DNA from: an uncultured bacterium
GTDB taxonomy: Bacteria > Nitrospirota > Thermodesulfovibrionia > Thermodesulfovibrionales > Thermodesulfovibrionaceae
NCBI GenBank assembly: GCA_937924475.1
Contig: CALDSV010000006.1
Coordinates: forward strand, 17,511-81,510
Direction: 5' to 3'
Length of the DNA stretch: 64,000 nt
Below, piece by piece: positions 8,549-64,000 of this stretch (the first letter of the stretch is position 1; every line of letters begins with the position of its first letter). A program made the translations under genes and the position numbers. The notes beneath the pieces are model-generated. The model was not told the origin of the DNA. It was given only the letters and a program-made list of their open reading frames with translations, and did no database searches.

Positions 8549-9373
8549 TTATCTAAATTTCAGTTGGCAAATAAAATATTCTCCCTTTGTACGATGGAGA
8601 AGTTGAAAGCCTTGCTTGCTTGCTAAGGTTTCTGAAATTTTTAAACCTATCCCAGTACCTCTGCTTAAGACCAAAATCTTGTTTCTTATTGCTAAATATC
8701 TTCTTGTAACCCTTATGTAAACTATTCCTTCCGAGTATTTTCCTGCATTTTCAATAAGAGGAAATATTATGTTTTCAAAGATTTGCTTATTGGAGTAGAC
8801 ATAGACATCCTTTCCACTTATTTTGAAAGACTTCTTTTCTGATAGAATATCTATGCACTTGTTAAGAATTTCCATTACACTAACTCTTTCTTTTTCTGAG
8901 GAAAATTTCTTAAAATTTTCAATATAGCTTAATATGGTGCTAAGATCATCCTTAATAAGCTCATAGTTTTTCTCAAGCCTTTGTAAGGCCATCTCATCTC
9001 TCTTTATCTTGAGTATTTCTATATTTCCTTTCTGGGATGCGAGAAAATTTCCAAACTTATGAGATATGGTAAGAAGCAGTAATTCAAGAAAGTCCTTATA
9101 TTCTCTCTCCTGCTTACTCATTCTATCAATAATTTTGTAAAGTATAAGCATTGTAACCAAAATAAGCAAAAATTCCCACAGAATAACTTGTTTAGTATAC
9201 TCATAGATTTTATTTTCAATAAACTCTCTATTGATTCTATTTTGTTGAAGATAGTGGAGAAGGTAATCTTCTTTAAAGTAATCAATGAAATTAAAAAACA
9301 TTGAATTAAGATAAAAAAATACAGTTATGGTAACAAAAGCAAAGGCAATTATAACTTTAATATGGAATCTCAA
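8549..9373 (-). CDS. Membrane sensor histidine kinase
   Basis: Two TM segments, ISHKFGNFLAS H-box-like, N-box (PLIENAGKYSEG), GTGIGLKI; overlaps the response regulator gene. Confidence 0.8.
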   Translation of the reverse strand: MRFHIKVIIAFAFVTITVFFYLNSMFFNFIDYFKEDYLLHYLQQNRINREFIENKIYEYTKQVILWEFLLILVTMLILYKIIDRMSKQEREYKDFLELLLLTISHKFGNFLASQKGNIEILKIKRDEMALQRLEKNYELIKDDLSTILSYIENFKKFSSEKERVSVMEILNKCIDILSEKKSFKISGKDVYVYSNKQIFENIIFPLIENAGKYSEGIVYIRVTRRYLAIRNKILVLSRGTGIGLKISETLASKQGFQLLHRTKGEYFICQLKFR

Positions 9374-10014
9374 AGCAATCTGTATCCCCTTCCCGGATAA
9401 GTTTTTATGGAATCTGGAGGAAGTATTTTCCTTAGTTCTTTAATGTAGGCTCTAATAATATCATCACTTACGTCTTTATTAGGCCAAATATAGTTAAATA
9501 TTGTTTCATTGTTTACTATTTCGCCTCTTCTTTTTAACAACAGTATTAAAAGCTCCCAAGCATTTTTTGAAATTTTAATCTCTTTATCCCCTTTGTATAT
9601 TGTCTGCGCATCCAGATTTATAGTAATGTCTCCTACTTGCACAATTGTTTCAATATGTCTTCTTTTATTCAATGCATGAAGCCGCAAAATTATTTCCTTG
9701 AAATCAAAGGGTTTTATAAGATAATCATCAGCACCTTTAAGAAAACATTCCTCCTTACTTTCCATATCTCTCTTTGCAGTGATTACAAGAATAGGTTTAT
9801 TAAATCCTGATTTTCTTAAAACTTCAATTATTTTTTCACCAGAGGTGTGTTTAAGTATCAAGTCAATAACAAAAACATCAAATTCATATTTTCCTATTAC
9901 CTTAGGCAGTTCTCTTTCATCCCAAAGCCAAAGGGTTTCAATATTATGAAGCTCAAGAAAATCCCTTAAGGTTTCTCCTAAAATCCTGTCATCCTCAACA
10001 AGGAGAATACGCAT
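9370..10014 (-). CDS. OmpR/PhoB-family response regulator
   Basis: Receiver (LLVEDD, VIDL, TAKR, KPFDF) plus winged-helix C-terminus (IWPNKDVSDDIIRAYIKELRK...YPGRGYRLL). Confidence 0.9.
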   Translation of the reverse strand: MRILLVEDDRILGETLRDFLELHNIETLWLWDERELPKVIGKYEFDVFVIDLILKHTSGEKIIEVLRKSGFNKPILVITAKRDMESKEECFLKGADDYLIKPFDFKEIILRLHALNKRRHIETIVQVGDITINLDAQTIYKGDKEIKISKNAWELLILLLKRRGEIVNNETIFNYIWPNKDVSDDIIRAYIKELRKILPPDSIKTYPGRGYRLL

Positions 10015-43520: not shown

Positions 43521-43852
43521 GCTTGGAAAAGTATCTTAAAGAATTACTAATTCATCAAATTAGACAAAGGCTAAGCAAGATAAAACAAGATTTAGAGCCT
43601 CTTCAATCCTCTCCTCCTGATTTGATAATAAAAAGTTACGGAATGACTATTGGATACATGGACATATTGATAGAAAAAGAAATTGACCCTGAAAGAATTA
43701 CTAAATGGAAAAATCTCATAAAAGAGGGTAATAAATTAATTATTATAGTGCCTAAGGAAGAGAAACTGAAAATTACAGAAATCTTATGGAGAGAAGGGCT
43801 TGCTGAAAAAATAAGTATGGGAACATATGAGATCAACTTATCTTTGCCTTGA
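43517..43852 (+). CDS. Conserved-looking hypothetical protein
   Basis: Overlaps the upstream stop; SD-like context; no family recognised. Confidence 0.55.
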   Translation: MSLEKYLKELLIHQIRQRLSKIKQDLEPLQSSPPDLIIKSYGMTIGYMDILIEKEIDPERITKWKNLIKEGNKLIIIVPKEEKLKITEILWREGLAEKISMGTYEINLSLP

Positions 43853-44542
43853 GATAAAATCCTCCAAGCAAAGCTTTTGAATCTCTTCTGTAACAAATGT
43901 TCCTCTTAACATTTTACCCTCCACCATATAAATAACCATCTCTGCTATATTTGTGGCGTGATCTGCTATCCTTTCAAGGTATTTAGCTATGAACATTCTT
44001 TTAAGAGCAAGGGGAATTATATCAGGATTTTTTATCATTAACTCAAAAAGTTCATTATGATTATTTTTAAGAAGCTCATCTACTTTATCATCTCTTTTTA
44101 TAACATCGTAGCATAAGTCTACATCTTCTTTCACAAAAGCATTTATAACATCTTCTACCATACTTTCAGTAATTTCTGCCATTTTAGGAATATTTACGAA
44201 AGGTTTTAGAAAAGGTTCTTGGTTTAATTCTACGGCTCTTTCAGCAATATTCACAGCAAAGTCACCCATTCTCTCAAGATCAGTGGATATTTTCATTGCC
44301 GTGGTTATAAATCTTAAGTCCTTTGCCATAGGTTGTCTAAGGGCTATTAATCTTATACATTCTTCATTTATATCCACTTCAAGACCATTTATAAGATTGT
44401 CTCTTGATATAACCTGTTTTGCCAATTCGTTGTCTCTCTCAATAAGAGCTTTGACAGCCTTTCTTACTCCCTCTTCCACCAGACAACCCAGTATAAGTAT
44501 CTTTTCTTTTAATTTTCTTAATTCTTCATCTAATATCCCCAT
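43838..44542 (-). CDS. phoU: Phosphate signalling protein PhoU
   Basis: Two PhoU repeats (AKDLRFITTAMKISTDLERMGDFAVNIAERA; LKRMFIAKYLERIADHATNIAEMV). Confidence 0.96.
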   Translation of the reverse strand: MGILDEELRKLKEKILILGCLVEEGVRKAVKALIERDNELAKQVISRDNLINGLEVDINEECIRLIALRQPMAKDLRFITTAMKISTDLERMGDFAVNIAERAVELNQEPFLKPFVNIPKMAEITESMVEDVINAFVKEDVDLCYDVIKRDDKVDELLKNNHNELFELMIKNPDIIPLALKRMFIAKYLERIADHATNIAEMVIYMVEGKMLRGTFVTEEIQKLCLEDFISRQR

Positions 44543-44708
44543 GCCATCCTCCTTAAGTTTCCTTAGGTTATTATACAGTTAAGATGTCTTTATTAACAAG
44601 ATACTGATAAAGAGATTATTTAAAAACTTAAATAAAAAAACCTTCTTAATTATTGTAATTGATGTTCCATATATCTATTAAAACGCATTAAAAGGAAATG
44701 AATTGTCC

Positions 44709-45566
44709 TTAACCAAATCTTCCTGTTATGTAGTCTTCTGTGAGTTTTTGGGAGGGTACAGTAAATATTTTTTGAGTGTTTGCAAACTCAATTAACTCTC
44801 CCAAGTACATGAAACCTGTCCAGTCAGAAACTCTCGCTGCCTGTTGCATGTTATGGGTGACGATTATTATTGTTAATCTATCTTTAAGTTTCATAATTAA
44901 TTCCTCTATTTTTGATGTAGATATTGGATCCAAAGCACTTGTAGGCTCATCAAACAAGAGAACATCAGGTTCAATAGCTATAGCTCTTGCTATACATAAT
45001 CGTTGCTGTTGTCCTCCCGAAAGACTATAAGCATTGGCATTAAGCCTATCTTTTACTTCATCCCAAAGGGCTGATGCTCTCAGTGCCCACTCCACTTTCT
45101 CTTGAATTAATTTTTTATCTCTTACCCCATTTACTCTTAATCCGTAAGCTACATTTTCAAAAATGGATTTCGGAAAGGGATTAGGTCTCTGAAAAACCAT
45201 ACCTATTCTTCTTCTCAGATCAAGAACATCTATCTTAGGATTTGCTATATTAATACCCTCAGGATGAAAAATAATATCTCCTTCATATCTTGAACCTGGA
45301 TAGAGATCATGCATTCTGTTGAAACATCTTAGTAGAGTAGTTTTACCACATCCGCTCGGTCCAATAAGAGCAGTTATTTTTTTTGTAGGAATTTTAAGAT
45401 TGATATTTTTTAAAGCTCTAAACTCTCCATAGTAGAAATTTAAATCCTTTACCTCCAGTTTTATTTCACCTTCTGGTTTTTGAATAGCATTTCCCATTTC
45501 TGAAACCCTCTCTGCAGTGAATGAAAAAAAATTTTTGATGCTTTCTATCATAGATCCAATTACCAT
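44709..45566 (-). CDS. pstB: Phosphate ABC transporter ATPase PstB
   Basis: [49 protein letters not shown]. Confidence 0.97.
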
Positions 45567-46480
45567 ATGTATTTTCTCCTTACTTTTTGCCTAAAATAGT
45601 AAGCTATAGCGTTCATTAAGACTGTTAAAATAAGCAATATAAATCCTGCGGCTGCAGCATTAACCTGAAAGGCTGCTTGGGGTCTGGAAACCCAGTTAAA
45701 TATTTGAATGGGCAGAACTGTGAAAGGTGACATGAAAACTTCCCAAATTTTATCCACTGATATAAAGGGAAAATCGGATGTAAAAGGAGAAGGTGGTAAA
45801 AAAGCAATAAAGGTAAGAGCACCAATTGTTATAAGAGGTGCTGTCTCTCCAATAGCACGAGATGCAGCAATTATTAGACCTGTCAGTATTCCGCCTAAGG
45901 AGTAAGGCAAAATGTGGTCTCTCACAGTATCCCATTTTGTTGCACCTACTGCATAAGCTCCCTCTCTTATGTCACGGGGGATTCTTCTAATGGCTTCTCT
46001 TGTATTTACCACTATTACCGGTAACATGAGAATACTCAAAGTTAAGCCAGCTGTTAAGATACTTTCTCCAAATTTAAATCTATAGACAAAAATACCCAAA
46101 GCTAATAATCCGTAGATAATAGCCGGTACTGCAGCAAGATTATTTATGTTTAGTTCAATTATTGTCTCAATTTTACCTATGATACCTCTTTTTGTTGCAT
46201 ATTCCTCCAAATAAATTCCTGCTGGAATTCCAATAAGTAATGACCAAAATATGGCTCCAGCCATCACAAGAAGAGTTCCCACCCAGCCTGAAAGAATTCC
46301 AGCTTGATCAGGAAATCTTGAGGGAAAAGACACATAAAAGGAAGGATCCTTGATTTTCTCTAAGCCATCAATAAATAAATTAATTATTAATGTAAAAAGA
46401 AAAGAGAGCACTATGAGAAAAGCTAAAGCTCCAATTATAGGAAATAATATGTCAGGTCTTGAAGTATTTTTTCTTTTCAT
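45560..46480 (-). CDS. pstA: Phosphate ABC transporter permease PstA
   Basis: BPD permease; [25 protein letters not shown]. Confidence 0.95.
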
Positions 46481-46482
46481 CT

Positions 46483-47376
46483 CTAATAAACCTCTCTTAT
46501 TCTTGACCTAAGCCAAAGTGCAATAGAATTAAAAATAAAAGCTATTAGAAATAAAGCTAAACCAACAGCAAAAATTGACAGATACTCAATGGAACCGAAA
46601 GGTAAGTCACCCAAAGCTACTTGAACTATATAACCTGTCATTGTTTGAACAGGCTCTCGGGGGTCTAAGGTAAGATTAGGATACATTCCAGCAGCAATAG
46701 CAACAACCATTGTCTCACCGATAGCCCTTGAAGCTCCTAATATAAATCCAGCTACAATTCCTGAAACAGCTGCAGGTAGAACGATTGTGAGAGCAGTTCT
46801 TAATTTGGTTGCACCTAAAGCATAGGAAGCTTCTCTAATTCTTTGAGGTACACCTTTCATAGCATCTTCAGCCATTGAAGCTGTATAGGGAAGTATCATG
46901 AAACCAAGAACAATTCCTGGTGCTAATGAATTAAATCCTTCCAGATTAGGAACTATTTTCTGTAAAATTGGAGTGACAAATAATAGTGTGAAATAACCAA
47001 AAACAACTGTTGGGATTGCTTCAAGAAACTCAATGATAGGTTTTGCAATCTCTTTAACCTTTACAGAGGCATATTCACTTAGATAGATTGCTATCAGCAA
47101 TCCTAAAGGAATTGAAACTAACATAGCAATTCCTGCGATGAGAAAAGTGCCTGCCACTAAAGGCCAAATTCCGAATTTTTTGGTGGCGAAAACAGGTGTC
47201 CATTCTTTTTCAGTGAGAAATTCTTTTATAGAAACCTCTTTAAAGAATTCAATTGAGTCCGATAAAAGCACATAGACTATTCCTACGGTTATGAATATTG
47301 TAATAAGGCCGGCGGTGAAGAACACCGCCAGCATTAATTTGTCTAAAATTTTTTTATGGGCTACACTGGAAAACAA
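46483..47376 (-). CDS. pstC: Phosphate ABC transporter permease PstC
   Basis: [35 protein letters not shown]. Confidence 0.95.
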   Translation of the reverse strand: MFSSVAHKKILDKLMLAVFFTAGLITIFITVGIVYVLLSDSIEFFKEVSIKEFLTEKEWTPVFATKKFGIWPLVAGTFLIAGIAMLVSIPLGLLIAIYLSEYASVKVKEIAKPIIEFLEAIPTVVFGYFTLLFVTPILQKIVPNLEGFNSLAPGIVLGFMILPYTASMAEDAMKGVPQRIREASYALGATKLRTALTIVLPAAVSGIVAGFILGASRAIGETMVVAIAAGMYPNLTLDPREPVQTMTGYIVQVALGDLPFGSIEYLSIFAVGLALFLIAFIFNSIALWLRSRIREVY

Positions 47377-47395
47377 TTCTAATTTATCTCCTTAA

Positions 47396-48406
47396 TTAGT
47401 GTTTTGTTTCTCTATTAAGAAGCTCTTCTACTGTAAGTCCAACCTCAGGCTCACCACCAAAGACTGTTCCTTTCTGCATCTTTTTGAATCTCTCAAGAGC
47501 CATTTGATAAGCTTTTGCTGGAAGAGGAATTCCGCCTACTTGCTTTGTTATTTTTGAAGCGTTTTTAAGATAAAACTCAACAAATTCTTTTACTTCAGGT
47601 TTTTCTTTTGCTGATTTTTCATTTACATAGATGAATAGGGGTCTTGAAAGAGGGTTATAGGTTCCATCCATAACAGTTTTTTCACTTGGCATCACACATT
47701 TACCTGTTTTTGGATTGAGAACTGCCAGAGGCTTTACTTTCCCTTTATTTTCAACAACATATGTAAGTCCTACATAACCAAGTCCGCCTAAATCCCTTAT
47801 TACTGCATTCATGATAACATTGTCATCTTCACTGGCAACATAATCGCCTCTGCTTGCCTTAGCTTTTCCAACAACTGCCTCAGTGAAGTAATCAAAAGTT
47901 CCTGAATCAGCACCAGGTCCTGCAAGTCTAAGAGGTCTGTCAGGCCAGCTTGGATCAACCTGATTCCATTTTGTAATTTTACCTTGAGCTTCAGGCTCCC
48001 ACATTTTTTTTAGCTGTTCTACTGTTATGCAATCATTCTTGATCCAATTGTTTTTCACATTTACAAAAACTGAAAGAGCATCATAGGCTACAGGTAATTC
48101 AATATAGGTGATTCCAGCTTCTTTGCAGGCATCCATTTCCTTTTTTAAAATTGGTCTTGATGCATCAGATATGTCTGTCTCACCTCTACAAAACTTTTTA
48201 AAACCTCCACCAGTGCCTGAAATTCCTACTGTCACTTTTACAGCCCCTTTTTTAGCTTTCTGAAACTCCTCAGCTATTCCTTCAGTAATAGGAAAGACTG
48301 TTGATGAACCATCAATTTTGATGATAGGCTGTCCATAGGCAAGGGACATGACTGAGAAGAAACCAATTACTGCAAAAAATACTCCCAAAAGCTTTTGATA
48401 CCTCAT
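47396..48406 (-). CDS. pstS: Phosphate-binding protein PstS (SphX-like type)
   Basis: IDGSSTVFPITEGIAEEF; GISGTGGGFKKFCRGETDISDASRPI; first gene of pstSCAB-phoU. Confidence 0.94.
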   Translation of the reverse strand: MRYQKLLGVFFAVIGFFSVMSLAYGQPIIKIDGSSTVFPITEGIAEEFQKAKKGAVKVTVGISGTGGGFKKFCRGETDISDASRPILKKEMDACKEAGITYIELPVAYDALSVFVNVKNNWIKNDCITVEQLKKMWEPEAQGKITKWNQVDPSWPDRPLRLAGPGADSGTFDYFTEAVVGKAKASRGDYVASEDDNVIMNAVIRDLGGLGYVGLTYVVENKGKVKPLAVLNPKTGKCVMPSEKTVMDGTYNPLSRPLFIYVNEKSAKEKPEVKEFVEFYLKNASKITKQVGGIPLPAKAYQMALERFKKMQKGTVFGGEPEVGLTVEELLNRETKH

Positions 48407-48440: not shown

Positions 48441-48494
48441 AGTATAGAAACTTCTTGTTACAGCAAATTTACAGAAATGTTAAAATTGTGTTAC
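48441..48494 (-). promoter_or_regulatory. Pho box 1: four 11-bp-phased (G/T)TAA(C/A)(A/T) hexamers, 9 nt, TATACT -10 (for pstSCAB-phoU)
   Basis: Plus-strand TGTTAC 48456, ATTTAC 48467, TGTTAA 48478, TGTTAC 48489; AGTATA 48441-48446. Confidence 0.8.
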
Positions 48495-48546: not shown

Positions 48547-49554
48547 ATGATTAAAAGATTAAGCATTTTAGCTATTTTATCGGTTCTCCTTTTTCCTTGT
48601 TATGCTTTCTCTTCTGAGATGATTAATGGTGCTGGAGCAACCTTCCCTTACCCTCTCTATTCAGCTTGGGCTTCAAATTATTACAAAGCAACAAACATTA
48701 AAGTTAATTATCAATCAATTGGTTCAGGTGGAGGCATTAGACAGATAACAGAAAGAACAGTCCACTTTGGTGCTTCTGATATGGCTCTTATGCCTGATGA
48801 AATTGAAAAATCAAAACTTTTGCAGTTTCCTGCAGTTATAGGAGGAGTAGTTCCGGTAGTAAATCTTCCAAACATAGCTTCAGGTAGTTTGGTACTTGAC
48901 GGTATAACCTTGTGTGAAATATTTCTTGGTGAAATAAATAAATGGGATGATCCTAAATTAAAAGCCTTGAATCCTAATATAAATCTTCCTTCTAAACCAA
49001 TAACTGTTATTTATCGCTCCGATGGTTCTGGTACCACAGCCATATTCACCCATTACCTAAGCAGTGCTTGTAAAAAATGGTCAGAAAAAGTAGGGTATGG
49101 AACATCTGTAAAATGGAGAACAGGACTTGGAGGAAAAGGAAATGAGGGAGTTGCAAATTATGTTAAAAGAACTCCCTATTCTATAGGATATGTAGAATTT
49201 GCTTATGCAAAACAAAATAATTTGAGTGTAACAAAACTAAAAAATAAAGCAGGACAAATTGTTAAACCCGAAATTGATACCTTTGCAGAAGCTGCACTCA
49301 CTGCGTCTCTGGAACCGAAAAATCATTTCTATGCATGGTTAACCGATGCAACAGGCAAAAAAGCTTGGCCTATTACAGGAGCCACTTATATACTTCTTGC
49401 AAGAGAAAAAAATGATATTAACAAGTCAGTTATCAAATTCTTTGATTGGGCTTTTAATAATGGTGATGAAACTGCAAAAAAACTTGACTATGTACCTTTG
49501 CCTAAAAATTTAAAAGAAAAAGTGAGAACTTACTGGAAAACATACATAAAATGA
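48547..49554 (+). CDS. pstS: Second phosphate-binding protein PstS (E. coli-like type)
   Basis: INGAGATFPYPLYSAWASNY; SIGSGGGIRQITERTVHFGASD; RSDGSGTTAIFTHYLS. Confidence 0.95.
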   Translation: MIKRLSILAILSVLLFPCYAFSSEMINGAGATFPYPLYSAWASNYYKATNIKVNYQSIGSGGGIRQITERTVHFGASDMALMPDEIEKSKLLQFPAVIGGVVPVVNLPNIASGSLVLDGITLCEIFLGEINKWDDPKLKALNPNINLPSKPITVIYRSDGSGTTAIFTHYLSSACKKWSEKVGYGTSVKWRTGLGGKGNEGVANYVKRTPYSIGYVEFAYAKQNNLSVTKLKNKAGQIVKPEIDTFAEAALTASLEPKNHFYAWLTDATGKKAWPITGATYILLAREKNDINKSVIKFFDWAFNNGDETAKKLDYVPLPKNLKEKVRTYWKTYIK

Positions 49555-49637: not shown

Positions 49638-50018
49638 TCAATTATTCCCTCTTTTTTTCATATGGAGAGAGATTTTTCTGTATAGTTGAAAAATATCTCC
49701 TTTTACAATATAATCAGCAATGCCCTTAAGTGTTTTCATTTCTCTTAAATAAACTTCATCATAAGAGGAATAAAATAAAACAGGAATTTTCGATTTCTCA
49801 GTAAATTCTTTGATCAAATCACAAACCAAATCTCCTGACAAAGCAGGCATATTTACATCAAGAAGAACTAAGTCTGGTTGTAAATATTTAACATTCTTAG
49901 TGATTCCAAGCCAACCTAAATTTTCAATTACCATGTATCCAGCTTTTTCAAGAAGCTTTTTAGTTGTAAATAAATCCTTTTCATCGTCATCCACTAATAA
50001 AATCTTTCCTCTTTTCAT
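49638..50018 (-). CDS. Single-domain response regulator (receiver only)
   Basis: ILLVDDDEKDL; DLVLLDVNMPALSGD; PVLFYSSYDE; K in DYIVKGD. Confidence 0.92.
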   Translation of the reverse strand: MKRGKILLVDDDEKDLFTTKKLLEKAGYMVIENLGWLGITKNVKYLQPDLVLLDVNMPALSGDLVCDLIKEFTEKSKIPVLFYSSYDEVYLREMKTLKGIADYIVKGDIFQLYRKISLHMKKRGNN

Positions 50019-50094
50019 TGTTAACTCCTCCTTTCTTTACTTTGCAGGTTTCGGAGTTTTGATTTAGAAAAATGAATTTATTCTACTTATAGAG

Positions 50095-50148
50095 AGGATA
50101 CTATCTTTTTGTTAAAGAGAAATTAAAAAAATATTAAAAAATTGTTAA
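50095..50148 (-). promoter_or_regulatory. Pho box 3: four 11-bp-phased TTAA(C/T)(A/T) hexamers, 9 nt, TATCCT -10 (for receiver gene)
   Basis: Plus-strand TGTTAA 50110, AATTAA 50121, TATTAA 50132, TGTTAA 50143; AGGATA 50095-50100. Confidence 0.75.
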
Positions 50149-50186: not shown

Positions 50187-50224
50187 AAAAGAGCCTCAAG
50201 AGACCATCCTCTCAAGGCTCTTTT
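50187..50224. terminator. Intrinsic terminator at end of the PHP/GT/phosphatase operon
   Basis: AAAAGAGCCT ... AGGCTCTTTT perfect 10-bp stem. Confidence 0.8.
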
Positions 50225-50246: not shown

Positions 50247-50438
50247 TTAATAAGTTTTTTTCCTTAAAAATAGAGAAATTTTTCGATAAATATGAAAAAC
50301 ATCTCCTTTCTCTATAAAGGATGCTAAGTTATCCTGTAACATCATTGAATCGATATTAAATTGATGAGATTTTAAGGATGACAAAACAGGTATCTTACTT
50401 GATTGCTTTGCTTTCTTTAAAATTTTTTCTTTTTTCAA
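50247..50438 (-). CDS. 63-aa C-terminal receiver-like microprotein (half-length paralogue of 49638..50018)
   Basis: SKIPVL...EKGDVFHIYRKISLFLRKK aligns with SKIPVL...VKGDIFQLYRKISLHMKKR; TTG start with AGGAGG SD. Confidence 0.7.
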   Translation of the reverse strand: MKKEKILKKAKQSSKIPVLSSLKSHQFNIDSMMLQDNLASFIEKGDVFHIYRKISLFLRKKTY

Positions 50439-50446
50439 TTTTCCTC

Positions 50447-51163
50447 CTATTTTCCTATGATAAGTTTTTCTGCAAAATAATAGGGTAGGCCTCTATCAAT
50501 TATGGCATCAATAACTCTTTTAATGTCATATTCCTTTCTTATAAATTGAGTACTAACCTCTTCTTCTTTTATCTCCACAAAACATACGCAAGTTCTTGGG
50601 TCACCATCCTTAGGCTTTCCAACACTTCCTGCGTTTATAAAATATTTTCCACCAATTTTTTTGAAATAAGGAATATGAGTGTGTCCGTAGATCATTATAT
50701 CTGCTCCTGCCTTTTGAGCCATCAGAATAAAAAACTTATCATGCCTGTCTTCATACCAATATAGATTATTTTTTATTGGAGTAGCATGAAAAATACTCAC
50801 TCTCTTGCCTTCTATCTGAAAATTAATTCTAAAAGGCAGATTTTTCATGAAATCTCTTGTCTTCTCAGTAACATTTTTTTTGGTCCACTGGAAGGAAAGA
50901 TGAGCCATTTCTGCTTGTAAAGAATCTTCATACTTACAACCACAGTGCTCACTGTTGTAGGCAACATTTTCATCGTAATTTCCCTGAACTCCTTCAATCT
51001 GATGCTCTATCAAAAAGTCAACAACTTCATTAACAAAAGGCGCGTAGCCACCAAGATCACCCAGGTGATAAATTTTGTCAACTCCTAATTCAATCAGTGA
51101 GTTGTAAGCAGTTTTCAAAGCCTCTATGTTACCATGAATATCGCCTAATATGCCTAATTTCAC
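50447..51163 (-). CDS. Calcineurin-like metallophosphoesterase (YfcE/MJ0936-like)
   Basis: GILGDIHGNIEAL; HLGDLGGYAP; GNYDENV; YGHTHIPY. Confidence 0.93.
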   Translation of the reverse strand: MKLGILGDIHGNIEALKTAYNSLIELGVDKIYHLGDLGGYAPFVNEVVDFLIEHQIEGVQGNYDENVAYNSEHCGCKYEDSLQAEMAHLSFQWTKKNVTEKTRDFMKNLPFRINFQIEGKRVSIFHATPIKNNLYWYEDRHDKFFILMAQKAGADIMIYGHTHIPYFKKIGGKYFINAGSVGKPKDGDPRTCVCFVEIKEEEVSTQFIRKEYDIKRVIDAIIDRGLPYYFAEKLIIGK

Positions 51164-51184: not shown

Positions 51185-52732
51185 TTAAGCTATATGATAA
51201 TTAAGATGTCTTTCCCATTCCTCCTTTGTAATTTCTCTCACAAATTGGAGGGCTTCTTTCTTTGTCATTTTAGGATTATTATATTTTAAACCTAAATATT
51301 CAGTCATCACATAATATAAGTCCGTGTTATCTATGAGGTTTTTTAACTTTGTACCAAAGGAATCTTTTCCGTATATTAAAGTAAGCTGATCTTCGGCTGT
51401 ATGATTTGTTGAGGTAAAACCAATGTTGCCTCTTCTTACCTTTGCAGGCTTTTTTAGTTTGTCTTCTTTTTCGTAGTCATAAACACTTTTCCTTAGAATA
51501 TTTCCCATGGTTGCCTCTGGCTCATACCAAATATCATTTACAATTAAAGTTCTTTTATTGGTTAATTTTGAGTATATTTCCTCTGCTTCCTGTGAAGAAA
51601 TCTCAATTTTTGTGTAAAACTCAAAAATATCTTTTACTGTCTTTAAATCTTGATTTCTCATTTTTTTAATCATATATTCAAAGGATGCTGTGTTGTTATA
51701 TTTCATTAATGCTTCAGTAGCGTCATTGTATTCTGGGCCGGTACCATTGATACCAAATCCAGAGTTTCCATGATCAGAGGTTAATATCATCACCACATCG
51801 GGATTTTTATCAATAAAATCCTTAACGATTGCGATTGTTTTGTCTAATTCATAACAATCCATCATAGCTCCGAAGGCATCATTAGCATGACAGGCATGAT
51901 CTATTCTTCCAGCTTCAATAAGAAGCAGAAAGCCTTTTTTATTCTTTGAAAGCTTCCTTAAAGCTACTGCTGTCATCTCCGGTAAAGAAGGTTGCTTATT
52001 GCCCATTTCTTTATCATTCAATCTGTCAACAAAATAACTAATGTGAGAAGAATTGAAAACACCTAAAAGAGGAACATCATCACTAACTTCTAATAAATCA
52101 TCTCTGCTGCGCAGGATCTTATAACCTTTTAAGGAAAATTCTTCATATAGATTTCTACCATCTTTCCTCTTTTCTGGATTAAAGTGTCTGTCACCTCCAC
52201 CCATAGCAACTTCCAACCTACTATTAAGTAAATCTATAGCTATGTTATCCTCATCATCTCTATTTAAATTATGACTATACCAAGCAGCTGGAGTAGCATG
52301 AGTTACTCTTGTAGTTGTTACAAATCCACAGGAATATCCTTTTTTATTGGCTAACTCAAAGAGAGTGCTTAGGTTTCTCCCATCGGGCAACACCGCTAAA
52401 TATCTATTAGCAGTTTTGGAACCTGTTGCCCAGGCAACAGAAGCAGGAGCAGAGTCAGTTACTACCGAAGATAAAGATGAGGTATTCTGGAGAAAAATCC
52501 TTGTTTTATTATCTCTTAAAAGTATAGATAAATTACTCTCTTCCTTAAATTTTCTTTCAATAAACTCGTTCATTGCCTTCATTACTCCAAGAGGAAAACC
52601 GTCACCTACTATAAATACAATACCCTTTGCTTTACTCTTCTGGTTGTTTAAGCTTGCAAAAACTTCCTCTGATGAAGCAATTAGGGAGATAAAGCTTGCC
52701 AAGGATGCTTTTAAAAAATCTCTTCTGTCCAT
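51185..52732 (-). CDS. Alkaline phosphatase, Tat-type signal
   Basis: MDRRDFLKASLASFISL signal; VVTDSAPASVAWATGSKT; LTSDHGNSGFG. Confidence 0.93.
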   Translation of the reverse strand: MDRRDFLKASLASFISLIASSEEVFASLNNQKSKAKGIVFIVGDGFPLGVMKAMNEFIERKFKEESNLSILLRDNKTRIFLQNTSSLSSVVTDSAPASVAWATGSKTANRYLAVLPDGRNLSTLFELANKKGYSCGFVTTTRVTHATPAAWYSHNLNRDDEDNIAIDLLNSRLEVAMGGGDRHFNPEKRKDGRNLYEEFSLKGYKILRSRDDLLEVSDDVPLLGVFNSSHISYFVDRLNDKEMGNKQPSLPEMTAVALRKLSKNKKGFLLLIEAGRIDHACHANDAFGAMMDCYELDKTIAIVKDFIDKNPDVVMILTSDHGNSGFGINGTGPEYNDATEALMKYNNTASFEYMIKKMRNQDLKTVKDIFEFYTKIEISSQEAEEIYSKLTNKRTLIVNDIWYEPEATMGNILRKSVYDYEKEDKLKKPAKVRRGNIGFTSTNHTAEDQLTLIYGKDSFGTKLKNLIDNTDLYYVMTEYLGLKYNNPKMTKKEALQFVREITKEEWERHLNYHIA

Positions 52733-52747
52733 TTTAAATTACCTCCT

Positions 52748-53920
52748 TTAGTGATTGAAAGCTGTTTTAAGCTTATTAAAGATAATCCTCACAGAAGATA
52801 AGTTATTATTAGGAATTATAATGGTATCCTTACCAATTTTGTAGATGTTACCCCTCCAACTTAACCTACAGCTAATAAAAGGTACAAACCAAATTAGAGC
52901 AGTTATTAGGTCTTTTATGGGTATTAGCAAAACAGAAATATTTAAAGGGGATTTAATTAGCCTACTTGTATAAAAATCAAAAGATATTTTTAAAAGAAGA
53001 GTCATGAGAAAAACTTTGAGGGACATTATGGAAAAATTATCCACAAAGAAGGTGAGAGAGGATAGAAAGAGGGGATTAGATAGAGGTTCTGTAAAATATT
53101 TTATTCCTCCTATCTTCCATCTTATCTTTGCCCACCTCGTATGCCTATTAAGAAATCTACTTAAACTCCAATATTCATTTACATTTTTGACCATATAATT
53201 ACTGAGAACAACTCCTTTGCCCTTTTCATGCATAAGCTTACCCAGCATGTAATCTTCTGCCAGTATGTCCTTTATAGCATCAAATCCTCCGATTTCCTCA
53301 AAATCCTTTTTTCTCATGAGCATTGATTTGCCAATGCTACAGGGCATTTTTAGAAATTTATCAAGAAAACATGTGGCAAGTATAACAAAAGAATTTAATT
53401 GAAGATTCTCCAGTTTTGCACCTATGCTTCTTCCCGAAACACCCACTATCAGATTTGTTATAAGGCCAGTATTTTCAGTCATGCAAGAAACTGTTTTCCT
53501 CAGATAATCTTTTCCTACATAAACATTACTATCACTTATAAGGAAGTAATCGTATTTAGAGTTTCTATAGGCAGTTATCATGTTTTTCACCTTTGGATTT
53601 AATGCTCTTTGAGAGCCATCTAATATTATCCTTACTAAATGAGGATATTTATTTTTTATCTTCTCTGCTATTCTGTAGGCAGGATCATTAACATCCTGCA
53701 AAGAAAAAATAATCTCATATTCAGGGTAGTCTTGTTTGCAAAAGCTCTCAAGATTGTCAAAAAGATTATCATCAATGCCTTTTAAAGGCTTAATTATAGA
53801 TACAGGAGGAAGAAAAGTTGAATTATAACTTTCACTTAGTTTCTTTCTCAATGCCAGAATTTGGAAAAAATAAATTGTTATGCTTACTAAAATTAATGCT
53901 AAAATTATCCATAAAAACAT
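52748..53920 (-). CDS. GT21-like glycosyltransferase (ceramide glucosyltransferase / HpnI-like)
   Basis: PPVSIIKPLKGIDDNLFDNLESF; LISDSNVYV; DILAEDYMLGKLM; RHTRWAKIRW. Confidence 0.88.
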   Translation of the reverse strand: MFLWIILALILVSITIYFFQILALRKKLSESYNSTFLPPVSIIKPLKGIDDNLFDNLESFCKQDYPEYEIIFSLQDVNDPAYRIAEKIKNKYPHLVRIILDGSQRALNPKVKNMITAYRNSKYDYFLISDSNVYVGKDYLRKTVSCMTENTGLITNLIVGVSGRSIGAKLENLQLNSFVILATCFLDKFLKMPCSIGKSMLMRKKDFEEIGGFDAIKDILAEDYMLGKLMHEKGKGVVLSNYMVKNVNEYWSLSRFLNRHTRWAKIRWKIGGIKYFTEPLSNPLFLSSLTFFVDNFSIMSLKVFLMTLLLKISFDFYTSRLIKSPLNISVLLIPIKDLITALIWFVPFISCRLSWRGNIYKIGKDTIIIPNNNLSSVRIIFNKLKTAFNH

Positions 53921-53924
53921 TAAT

Positions 53925-54614
53925 TTACCCCCTAAAAAGTGTTATTGCCACGCCTTTGTTATGCTTTATACATCTCTTTATTGAAATAATGTCTTTTTCA
54001 CAGTTAAGAAGAGTTTTCCATGAGTAAAGATGTCTTGGCTTGTGAAAATCGCTATTTGCAATATAAGGATATTTTTTAAGGCTTACCACATTGAAAACAT
54101 CATCTCTATTTGCTATTTCCCATGCATCTATATATTTCCCGTATATATCTCTGTTATTCCAAAGATATAGTGTATTCCTTATTTCTCCCCTCATGTGGTG
54201 AGGATGGCAAGCAATTATAAGGGCGTCTTGTTTTTTTGCTTCAAGAAATATATTTTCATAAGATTCACAGGCTGGGATAAAGTCTTTTATATCGAGAATT
54301 AGAATATGGGCAGATTTTTCAGAGGACAAATAATTTTTACTTATCTCAACTCCTGGAATAACGAGCATTTCGTATTTATTCCAGGCTCTCTGAGCTTCAT
54401 ATTTTATGTTTTCCATATATTCATTGAAATTTTTATGTGTAATTGTAAATCTAAATCGATGGGCAAACTTACCTATTAAACTATCTCCATTTACTACATG
54501 GTCTGTTATAGCTATAACATCAAAACCAGCCTGACCGAATATATCTACCACTTTTCTTAGCTCTATTGAACCATCAGAGTATTTAGTGTGAATGTGAAAA
54601 TCACATAACAGCAT
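53925..54614 (-). CDS. PHP-domain phosphoesterase
   Basis: CDFHIHTKYSDG; ITDHVVNGDS; PGVEIS; ANSDFHKPRHLYSWKT; start moved to internal ATG (see findings). Confidence 0.85.
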   Translation of the reverse strand: MLLCDFHIHTKYSDGSIELRKVVDIFGQAGFDVIAITDHVVNGDSLIGKFAHRFRFTITHKNFNEYMENIKYEAQRAWNKYEMLVIPGVEISKNYLSSEKSAHILILDIKDFIPACESYENIFLEAKKQDALIIACHPHHMRGEIRNTLYLWNNRDIYGKYIDAWEIANRDDVFNVVSLKKYPYIANSDFHKPRHLYSWKTLLNCEKDIISIKRCIKHNKGVAITLFRG

Positions 54615-54621
54615 ATAATTC

Positions 54622-54675
54622 ATAATAAATATTAGTTGTTACAGGATAGTTAAGAAATTTTTAAATTTCTGTTAA
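54622..54675 (-). promoter_or_regulatory. Pho box 2: four 11-bp-phased TTAACA-like hexamers, 9 nt, TATTAT -10 (for PHP/GT21/phosphatase operon)
   Basis: Plus-strand TGTTAC 54637, AGTTAA 54648, TTTTAA 54659, TGTTAA 54670; ATAATA 54622-54627. Confidence 0.78.
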
Positions 54676-62320: not shown

Positions 62321-63628
62321 TTAATGATTAGGTGATATATTATTAAGGAATTTTCTGCTTTTAATAAGATAAGAATAGAAATGGGCTGCTTTAGTTGGTA
62401 TTCTTTTAAAAGTTTTAAAATCAACTCTGTAAAGTCCAAATCTTGCATCAAGTCCGTGAAGCCATTCATAATTGTCAATTAAAGACCAATAGAAATAGCC
62501 CCTTACATCTATTCCTTCTGCTATGGCATTTTCTATTACATCAATGTGTGATTTAATGTATTTAATTTTTCTGTTGTCATTCCTTGTGGCAATTCCATTT
62601 TCTGTAATGATTAGAGGAACATTAAGCCGAGAAGCGTATTTTAGAACCTTCTTTAATCCCTTTGGGTATATTTCCCATCCCATATCAGTAAGACCGTGTC
62701 CGTCTATGTCTCTATGTCTAAATTCAATGAATAGTTTCCGAAAAGGATTAAATCTCATATGAACTCTTGTATAGTAGTTTATGCCAAAAAAGTCAATTTT
62801 TCCCTTTATGGGAACTTCTATTTCTATTCCTTTTCTAAAGGGAATGGGTAGAGTAATTTTTCCCTCTAAAAATCCATCAATTATTGAGTGATTGTAGAAT
62901 CTTTTTGCAACTTTTGATAAAACTCTATCAAAAGGATTCCATCTACACCAAGGTGCAAAAACAGCCATGTTGTGGGCAATACTTACCATGGAATTCTTAT
63001 TAATTAAATGTAAAAGTTCATAGATATGGCTATGACAAATTAGAATGTTTTTTAAAGCTTTCATCCCCAAATTTAAATCTCTATATCCTGGAGGAATACA
63101 ACCTTCTAAGTAACCACCCAATATGAGAAGATAAGGCTCATTGAAAGTAATCCAATAGTCAACTCCCTTTATGTTTTCAATAAGTTTTTCTACGTATTCT
63201 GTGAATTTCTCTATGGATTTTCTCTTATGCCAGGGATATTTGGTTATAAACCATATGGGATGAGTAAAATGATGAATTGTAACCATTGGTGTTATGTTGT
63301 TTTCTCTTAATAGATCAATAATTTTTTGATAATGTTGAACTACTTCCTTATTCCAGTAATTTTCAGCAGGTTGAATTCTGCTCCATTCAATAGAGAATCT
63401 GTAGGCATTGACACCAAGATTTTTTATAAGTTTAATATCTTCCTTGTAGAGTTCATAATGATTGGTCACCTTTGGATTAAGCTCAAAGATACTGTCCCAT
63501 GTGGACCAATCAGCATAGGGAGAACCTTCCAACTGAAAAGCAGAAGTAGCTACTCCCCAAAGAAAGTCTCTATTTTGGTTTGTGTCTATATGGTAATGAG
63601 ATATAAACTGATGTTCCTTTTCCATATT
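62321..63628 (-). CDS. GH1 family beta-glycosidase
   Basis: DFLWGVATSAFQLEG; TFNEPY acid/base; ITENG nucleophile; start set at MEKEHQF. Confidence 0.93.
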   Translation of the reverse strand, partial: NMEKEHQFISHYHIDTNQNRDFLWGVATSAFQLEGSPYADWSTWDSIFELNPKVTNHYELYKEDIKLIKNLGVNAYRFSIEWSRIQPAENYWNKEVVQHYQKIIDLLRENNITPMVTIHHFTHPIWFITKYPWHKRKSIEKFTEYVEKLIENIKGVDYWITFNEPYLLILGGYLEGCIPPGYRDLNLGMKALKNILICHSHIYELLHLINKNSMVSIAHNMAVFAPWCRWNPFDRVLSKVAKRFYNHSIIDGFLEGKITLPIPFRKGIEIEVPIKGKIDFFGINYYTRVHMRFNPFRKLFIEFRHRDIDGHGLTDMGWEIYPKGLKKVLKYASRLNVPLIITENGIATRNDNRKIKYIKSHIDVIENAIAEGIDVRGYFYWSLIDNYEWLHGLDARFGLYRVDFKTFKRIPTKAAHFYSYLIKSRKFLNNISPNH

Positions 63629-64000
63629 CGCTCTCAATTTCAATGGCTCCTTTAAGAATATTTATAAGTTCTCTTGTTATGTATAGACCTAAGCCAGAGC
63701 TTTCATAAATTTTTTCATTAATTGATTCTAAGGAACAGTAAGGATGGAAAAGATTTCTCATTTTATCCATGGGAATTCCTCTTCCTGTATCTTGAATTTT
63801 TATTAGAATTTCTTCTTTTAATATTTTTAAACCTATGAATATATAGCCTTCTTCAGTAAATTTGGCTGAATTTGATGCTATATTCATAAGAATTTGTCTT
63901 ATTTTTAAGGGATCAGAAAGCATTACAAAGCTTTTAGAGGGGAAGTGAGTTTTTAATTGTATTGGTTTACTACCTATGAGAATTTTAGTTATTTCAATAA
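63570..64000 (-). CDS. Histidine kinase C-terminus (HATPase), runs off window
   Basis: LSDPLKIRQILMNIASNSAKFTEEGYI; QDTGRGIP; SSGLGLYITREL; frame stays open to 64000. Confidence 0.88.
   Translation of the reverse strand, partial: IEITKILIGSKPIQLKTHFPSKSFVMLSDPLKIRQILMNIASNSAKFTEEGYIFIGLKILKEEILIKIQDTGRGIPMDKMRNLFHPYCSLESINEKIYESSGLGLYITRELINILKGAIEIESEYGKGTSVYISLPYRHKPK

Follow-up and report, generated by a model that had tools for sequence, protein, structure and literature searches.

Why should a receiver domain with no output domain be made from a promoter of the phosphate-starvation type? The question was raised by an intergenic element in a 64,000-nucleotide stretch of genomic DNA (the window, on contig C6) from an uncultured bacterium of the Thermodesulfovibrionaceae, here genome G000. 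Its gene content suggests a Thermodesulfovibrio-like member of the Nitrospirota. The first-pass annotation had read this element as a third Pho box upstream of a lone receiver gene, and had proposed the gene as a new Pho-regulon member.

A four-repeat Pho box precedes the receiver gene

Read directly, the minus strand from 50148 to 50095 is TTAACA-N5-TTAATA-N5-TTAATT-N5-TTAACA-N9-TATCCT, so that the four hexamers at 11-bp intervals and the 9 nt to a -10-like hexamer are exactly as had been claimed. The receiver ATG (50018) lies downstream of both on the same strand, behind a strong Shine-Dalgarno sequence.

50110..50148, minus strand: Pho box 3, hexamers TTAACA/TTAATA/TTAATT/TTAACA with an 11-bp period (50148-50143, 50137-50132, 50126-50121 and 50115-50110)
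50095..50100, minus strand: -10-like hexamer TATCCT, 9 nt from box 3
50025..50034, minus strand: Shine-Dalgarno sequence AAAGGAGGAG of the receiver gene, read directly
49638..50018, minus strand: stand-alone receiver, 126 aa (Pfam Response_reg, E 2.7e-14)

Scored against four copies of TTAACA at 11-bp spacing, box 3 reached 21/24, and the receiver gene thus carries the features expected of a Pho-regulon motif: a tandem 11-bp box at promoter distance, with a -10. No sigma-70 -35/-10 pair was found on the minus strand at box 3, nor any other promoter-like site on that strand between 49500 and 50500. The counterpart in the relative G013 reads TTAACG/TTAATA/TTAATC/TTAACA with a -10 of TATGCT, and the distance from box to ATG is 90–91 nt in both genomes; with this one close relative compared, the hexamers (22/24 identical) were not clearly better conserved than their flanks.

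PHO boxes take the place of the -35 element in front of pst and phosphatase genes, and the repeats recognized by Bacillus subtilis PhoP are TTAACA-like. Those of PhoB and PhoP promoters in Escherichia coli and B. subtilis are tandem 11-nt direct repeats (PMC4415409), as in box 3, but the sites described here nearly always have four repeats and a fixed 9-nt gap to the -10. They differ also from the PhoB box reported for D. vulgaris, (c/t)GT(n)AC, with a 6-bp repeat and a 4-bp spacer (PMC3333781).

Three such sites in 6 kb exceed chance expectation

Just three sites in the window scored at least 19 (48456-48494, 50110-50148 and 54637-54675). All lie on the minus strand, each has a TAnnnT hexamer at exactly +9, and together they span about 6.2 kb, in agreement with the first-pass count of three sites of one geometry in about 6 kb. 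The two others precede the pst and phoA operons.

48456..48494, minus strand: Pho box 1, 19/24, -10 TATACT at +9
43838..48406, minus strand: pstS1-pstC-pstA-pstB-phoU (ORFs; PstS1 domain in Pfam)
54637..54675, minus strand: Pho box 2, 21/24, -10 at +9
53925..54623, minus strand: PHP-domain protein, encoded first in the phoA operon (Pfam PHP)
52748..53920, minus strand: glycosyltransferase, Glyco_transf_21 (HpnI-like, below the HpnI cut-off)
51185..52732, minus strand: alkaline phosphatase PhoA (Pfam PF00245, 3.6e-72)
50447..51163, minus strand: YfcE-like metallophosphoesterase (Pfam/NCBIfam)

The names pstC, pstA, pstB and phoU are those we presume from translations and family knowledge. A second PstS gene (48547-49554, plus strand), divergent from pstS1, has a weak own-strand box (16/24).

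The earlier view that AT-richness alone is a poor explanation stood up to the shuffle test that had been proposed for it. When the whole window was shuffled (dinucleotide shuffles in 500-bp blocks, n = 500), none of the 500 shuffles contained even one site scoring at least 19 with a -10, and the mean number of such sites without the -10 requirement was 0.05. Shuffling the 228-nt intergenic region gave 0/10,000 both for a maximum of at least 21, the level of box 3, and for a score of at least 19 with a -10; for its 95-nt, 85% AT core, the corresponding values were 0/10,000 and 1e-4. The pattern therefore did not occur equally often in AT-matched shuffled DNA.

A scan of the 1.87-Mb genome allowing up to three mismatches returned five matches against none in a reversed control. 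Four of the five are distinct promoters with 0–2 mismatches, three of them here and one on contig C58, outside the window. They precede pstS1-pstCAB-phoU, PHP-GT-phoA-phosphoesterase, the receiver and, on C58, an operon of the order EAL - CBS/GGDEF - kinase - GH1; box 3 hence shares its motif with genes of G000 whose place in the Pho regulon is beyond dispute (pst, phoA). A looser pattern ranked the same four best, with a total of six matches against five in the control. Both scan patterns were drawn from the sites themselves and are mildly circular, so the weight rests on the shuffle tests, in which TTAACA served as a fixed scoring reference.

Box 1 is conserved in the genus and box 2 has a counterpart in all genus genomes mapped. 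Across the genus and the near relatives examined, the best -10 stood at exactly +9 in 34 of 41 sites, several of the remaining seven being scan artefacts with a start codon close by.

The receiver is a single domain with an intact phosphorylation site

The 126-aa protein is, as the first reading of the sequence had proposed, a receiver with no output domain; it consists of a single Response_reg domain, and its orthologs lack an output domain too. Because D10, D11, D54, S84 and K106, which make up an intact phosphorylation site, are invariant in 18 orthologs, the receiver should be phosphorylatable. It has the attributes of the CheY/DivK/Spo0F type, namely one receiver domain with a full acidic pocket, Asp, Ser/Thr and Lys; by sequence, the closest solved structure is DivK (1m5t, 7.6e-15), with Spo0F next (2e-12). 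While DivK, CheY and Spo0F resemble it as lone receiver domains with a full active site, this family differs in having its own motifs (GW-G-T around residues 35–40, FYSSxDE and YIxKGD), Pho control and a CBS-kinase neighbour.

Orthologs were found in 20 of 61 relatives and in 32 of 296 genomes of the phylum, and their scores are well separated from those of other receivers (3e-26 for the weakest ortholog, 8e-14 for the best of the rest). A search of named genomes with the receiver returned only an unrelated Comamonadaceae match. Two genomes carry two orthologs in tandem (G123:C160:14740-15512 and G082:C52:28416-29180).

Pho control is older in the genus than the private promoter

In every one of the 11 genus genomes in which the receiver is full-length, a four-repeat, 11-bp box lies upstream with its -10 at +9, and together with box 3 itself this makes Pho-regulon membership, as judged from sequence, well supported. 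In nine of the 11 the receiver is the last gene of a PHP-GT-(phoA)-(phosphoesterase)-receiver operon; in the other two, G000 and G013, it stands directly behind its own box, past a terminator.

50187..50224, minus strand: intrinsic terminator between the receiver and the upstream phoA operon (17-bp stem, -23.4 kcal/mol, z -5.25)
50247..50438, minus strand: receiver remnant, 63 codons, TTG start with RBS, β4 to α5 half with no phospho-acceptor
50247-50438 (minus strand), L036 8303-8491, L103 1419-1610 and L104 9578-9742: half-receiver ORFs of 54–63 codons, β4–α5 only, in four genomes

The terminator, the stem of which is mostly conserved in G013, cuts the receiver off from the phoA operon, and a private promoter is therefore needed. 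Given the operon position behind a box in nine of 11 genomes, the receiver stood behind a Pho box before it acquired one of its own. The word ‘new’ in the original proposal holds for the mostly open-access literature searched, in which no Pho-controlled lone receiver was reported; within the genus, placement behind a Pho box is old and only the private promoter is recent.

The remnant occupies the ancestral operon position, between phosphoesterase and receiver. It is found at the operon position also in G013 and G004, and is differently shortened in G003. A marker tree joins G000 and G013 to G004 (support 0.96), whereas in the receiver tree their full-length copies join that of G007 (support 0.84). 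The simplest account that these short sequences suggest is truncation of the operon copy in a common ancestor, followed later by the return of a full-length copy in front of its own Pho box. With a dN/dS of 0.30–0.47 where measured, weak constraint on the half-receiver is possible; it may be a remnant or a small decoy protein.

Adjacency and co-occurrence point to a partner kinase

Outside the genus, wherever both genes are readable, a CBS-kinase gene lies immediately or almost immediately upstream of the receiver and often overlaps it (in some GC-rich genomes the receiver frame is masked by a longer overlapping ORF and was placed from search coordinates). Neighbours of the pair are usually pst, PhoB-like, PHP, GT, GH1 or EAL genes; a stringent same-strand Pho box upstream of the pair was found in a minority of these genomes only (for example, G028, G046, G071, G132 and G283).

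The best match in G000 to the CBS-kinase of other genera (2e-54) is a 232-aa histidine kinase without a sensor domain on contig C58, whose gene is third in the EAL - CBS/GGDEF - kinase - GH1 operon that the fourth Pho box precedes. Taking matches above 160 bits as kinase orthologs, both partners occurred in 19 genomes, the receiver only in one (G010), the kinase only in one (G004) and neither in 40; as the genomes are related, these numbers do not represent independent events. In G004 the kinase is present but the receiver survives only as a remnant, and G010 has a divergent receiver and no kinase, so the pair is not strictly obligate. Apart from these two exceptions, adjacency in relatives and co-occurrence are as expected of a cognate pair, and the C58 kinase is probably the partner of the receiver, under the same Pho switch. 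G002 has a shortened phosphoesterase and what looks like a broken kinase frame (L039 9785-9991 and 15364-16060, respectively). REC-HisKA-HATPase proteins, a possible relay element, are encoded at L151 11265-12353, L152 3080-4189, L153 9238-10329 and L156 7075-8271, adjoined by the CBS-kinase in three of the four.

The end of the window reaches into the kinase operon.

63570..63998, minus strand: C-terminal portion of the histidine kinase predicted as partner, truncated where the contig stops, 82% identical to the C58 kinase
62321..63643, minus strand: GH1-family protein, encoded downstream of the kinase in its operon (Pfam Glyco_hydro_1, 4.1e-87)

The end of C6 overlaps the start of C58 (C58:1-1047) by 1,047 bp at 93% identity, and in G013 the kinase operon and the receiver region are on one contig; from these two observations the kinase-operon promoter lies about 16 kb from the receiver. 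We rejected the idea that the kinase copy at the end of C6 is a paralog, given this overlap and the single copy in G013. The junction is probably a strain-variant contig break, reflecting a strain mixture in the assembly. Near the kinase operon, C58 also carries another pstC-pstA-pstB set, which lacks pstS (L055 9462-11982, plus strand).

The kinase operon encodes putative c-di-GMP enzymes

Almost all copies checked retain the EAL motif, some reading ESL, and the GGDEF motif is GGDDF in every copy checked (L055 1310-2329 and orthologs), which makes a net breakdown of c-di-GMP at low phosphate plausible, by analogy with RapA. This Pho-induced c-di-GMP phosphodiesterase of Pseudomonas fluorescens (PMC3032545) is a parallel in function, being made at low phosphate as the EAL protein of the C58 operon would be. 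In contrast to RapA, the EAL gene shares its operon with the CBS/GGDEF and histidine kinase genes, and a separate Pho-controlled lone receiver belongs to the set. The domain order is that of EAL-CBS-GGDEF signalling proteins, of which G028 has one as a single fused protein, but in the C58 operon it is split into two genes, followed by the kinase, and the motif is GGDDF. The N-terminal CBS region of the CBS/GGDEF protein (L055 1310-2329) resembles the corresponding region of the CBS-kinase found in other genera. For D. vulgaris, too, PhoB has been reported to be linked to c-di-GMP (PMC3333781).

The PHP, Glyco_transf_21 (HpnI-like) and GH1 genes (52748-54623 and 62321-63643 in the window) recur together near Pho boxes across the phylum, the PHP-domain protein being present in 35 of 61 relatives. 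This set is a candidate for glycolipid synthesis that would replace phospholipids at low phosphate (compare PMC5193443 and PMC10667739).

A proposed mechanism and its rivals

The reading that we favour, and hold to be likely, is of a Pho-induced, PhoB-driven, diffusible receiver that is phosphorylated by the co-controlled C58 kinase. The four 11-bp repeats would stand in for a -35 element and be occupied by two PhoB dimers, which would recruit RNA polymerase to the -10, making the promoter activator-dependent. A PhoB-like regulator with an adjacent histidine kinase is encoded on contig C24; its TIGR02154 score, the best obtained, is 275 bits, below the equivalog cut-off of 296. Phosphate limitation would lead to synthesis of the receiver, which would act as a diffusible phospho-switch of the DivK/CheY/Spo0F kind, receiving phosphate from the C58 kinase, which has no sensor domain. 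Because the kinase operon too has a Pho box, both partners would appear only at low phosphate. The mode of PhoB binding is modelled on known PhoB systems, and binding, induction and kinase-to-receiver phosphotransfer are predictions. That the receiver might modulate c-di-GMP turnover through the co-induced EAL protein is a weaker deduction, and one we regard as rather doubtful.

A Pho-induced receiver could also feed back on PhoR/PhoB, as a phosphate sink or a Spo0F-like relay that damps or delays the response. Its co-induction with the Pho regulon, as judged by the motif, would suit such a role, as would the frequent position of the pair beside a PhoB-like gene or pst outside the genus; the REC-HisKA-HATPase proteins next to the CBS-kinase in some relatives would suit a relay. 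In most genomes, however, a dedicated CBS-kinase lies next to the receiver and could take the place of PhoR as donor, and we think feedback of this kind unlikely. It is more improbable still that the box is real but bound by another OmpR-family regulator responding to a signal other than phosphate. OmpR/WalR-type regulators do recognize similar tandem repeats, and the window encodes a second OmpR-type regulator (9370-10014; G000:C6:26886-27521). The C24 PhoB-like regulator falls short of the PhoB cut-off, and its TIGR02154 score (275.3 bits) is close to its YycF score (267.3 bits). Against this, the motif marks pst and phoA-type operons throughout the genus, and the genome has few other copies of it.

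The spacer region of box 3 is very T-rich and its -10 (TATCCT) is weak, as a chance match in AT-rich DNA would have it, the receiver then being transcribed by read-through or from an unseen promoter. We reject this explanation, the least probable, on the local shuffles; the same geometry recurs in G013, read-through would have to pass the upstream terminator, and the minus strand around the gene offers no alternative promoter-like site.

Implications for phosphate signalling

On the favoured reading of a PhoB-driven receiver with a co-controlled kinase, the promoter is ordinary in kind, a Pho promoter, and the target is unusual. Across the phylum, PhoB may induce a dedicated second-tier two-component system of CBS-kinase and lone receiver, along with c-di-GMP enzymes and genes presumed to remodel lipids, so that a second sensor, which might read adenine nucleotides by way of its CBS domains, would be built only after starvation has been registered and would set c-di-GMP levels or envelope remodelling; we offer this wider view tentatively, as possible but somewhat short of an even chance. 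A lone receiver with no assigned role is placed in a testable pathway that comprises its promoter, the kinase predicted to feed it, the condition expected to induce both and candidates for the output enzymes, and that is conserved across many genera in a phylum that has been little studied. Combining a regulator box shared by two separate genes with adjacency in relatives also offers a route to the partners of orphan receivers. If true, the scheme would add a nested two-component and c-di-GMP layer to the phosphate response.
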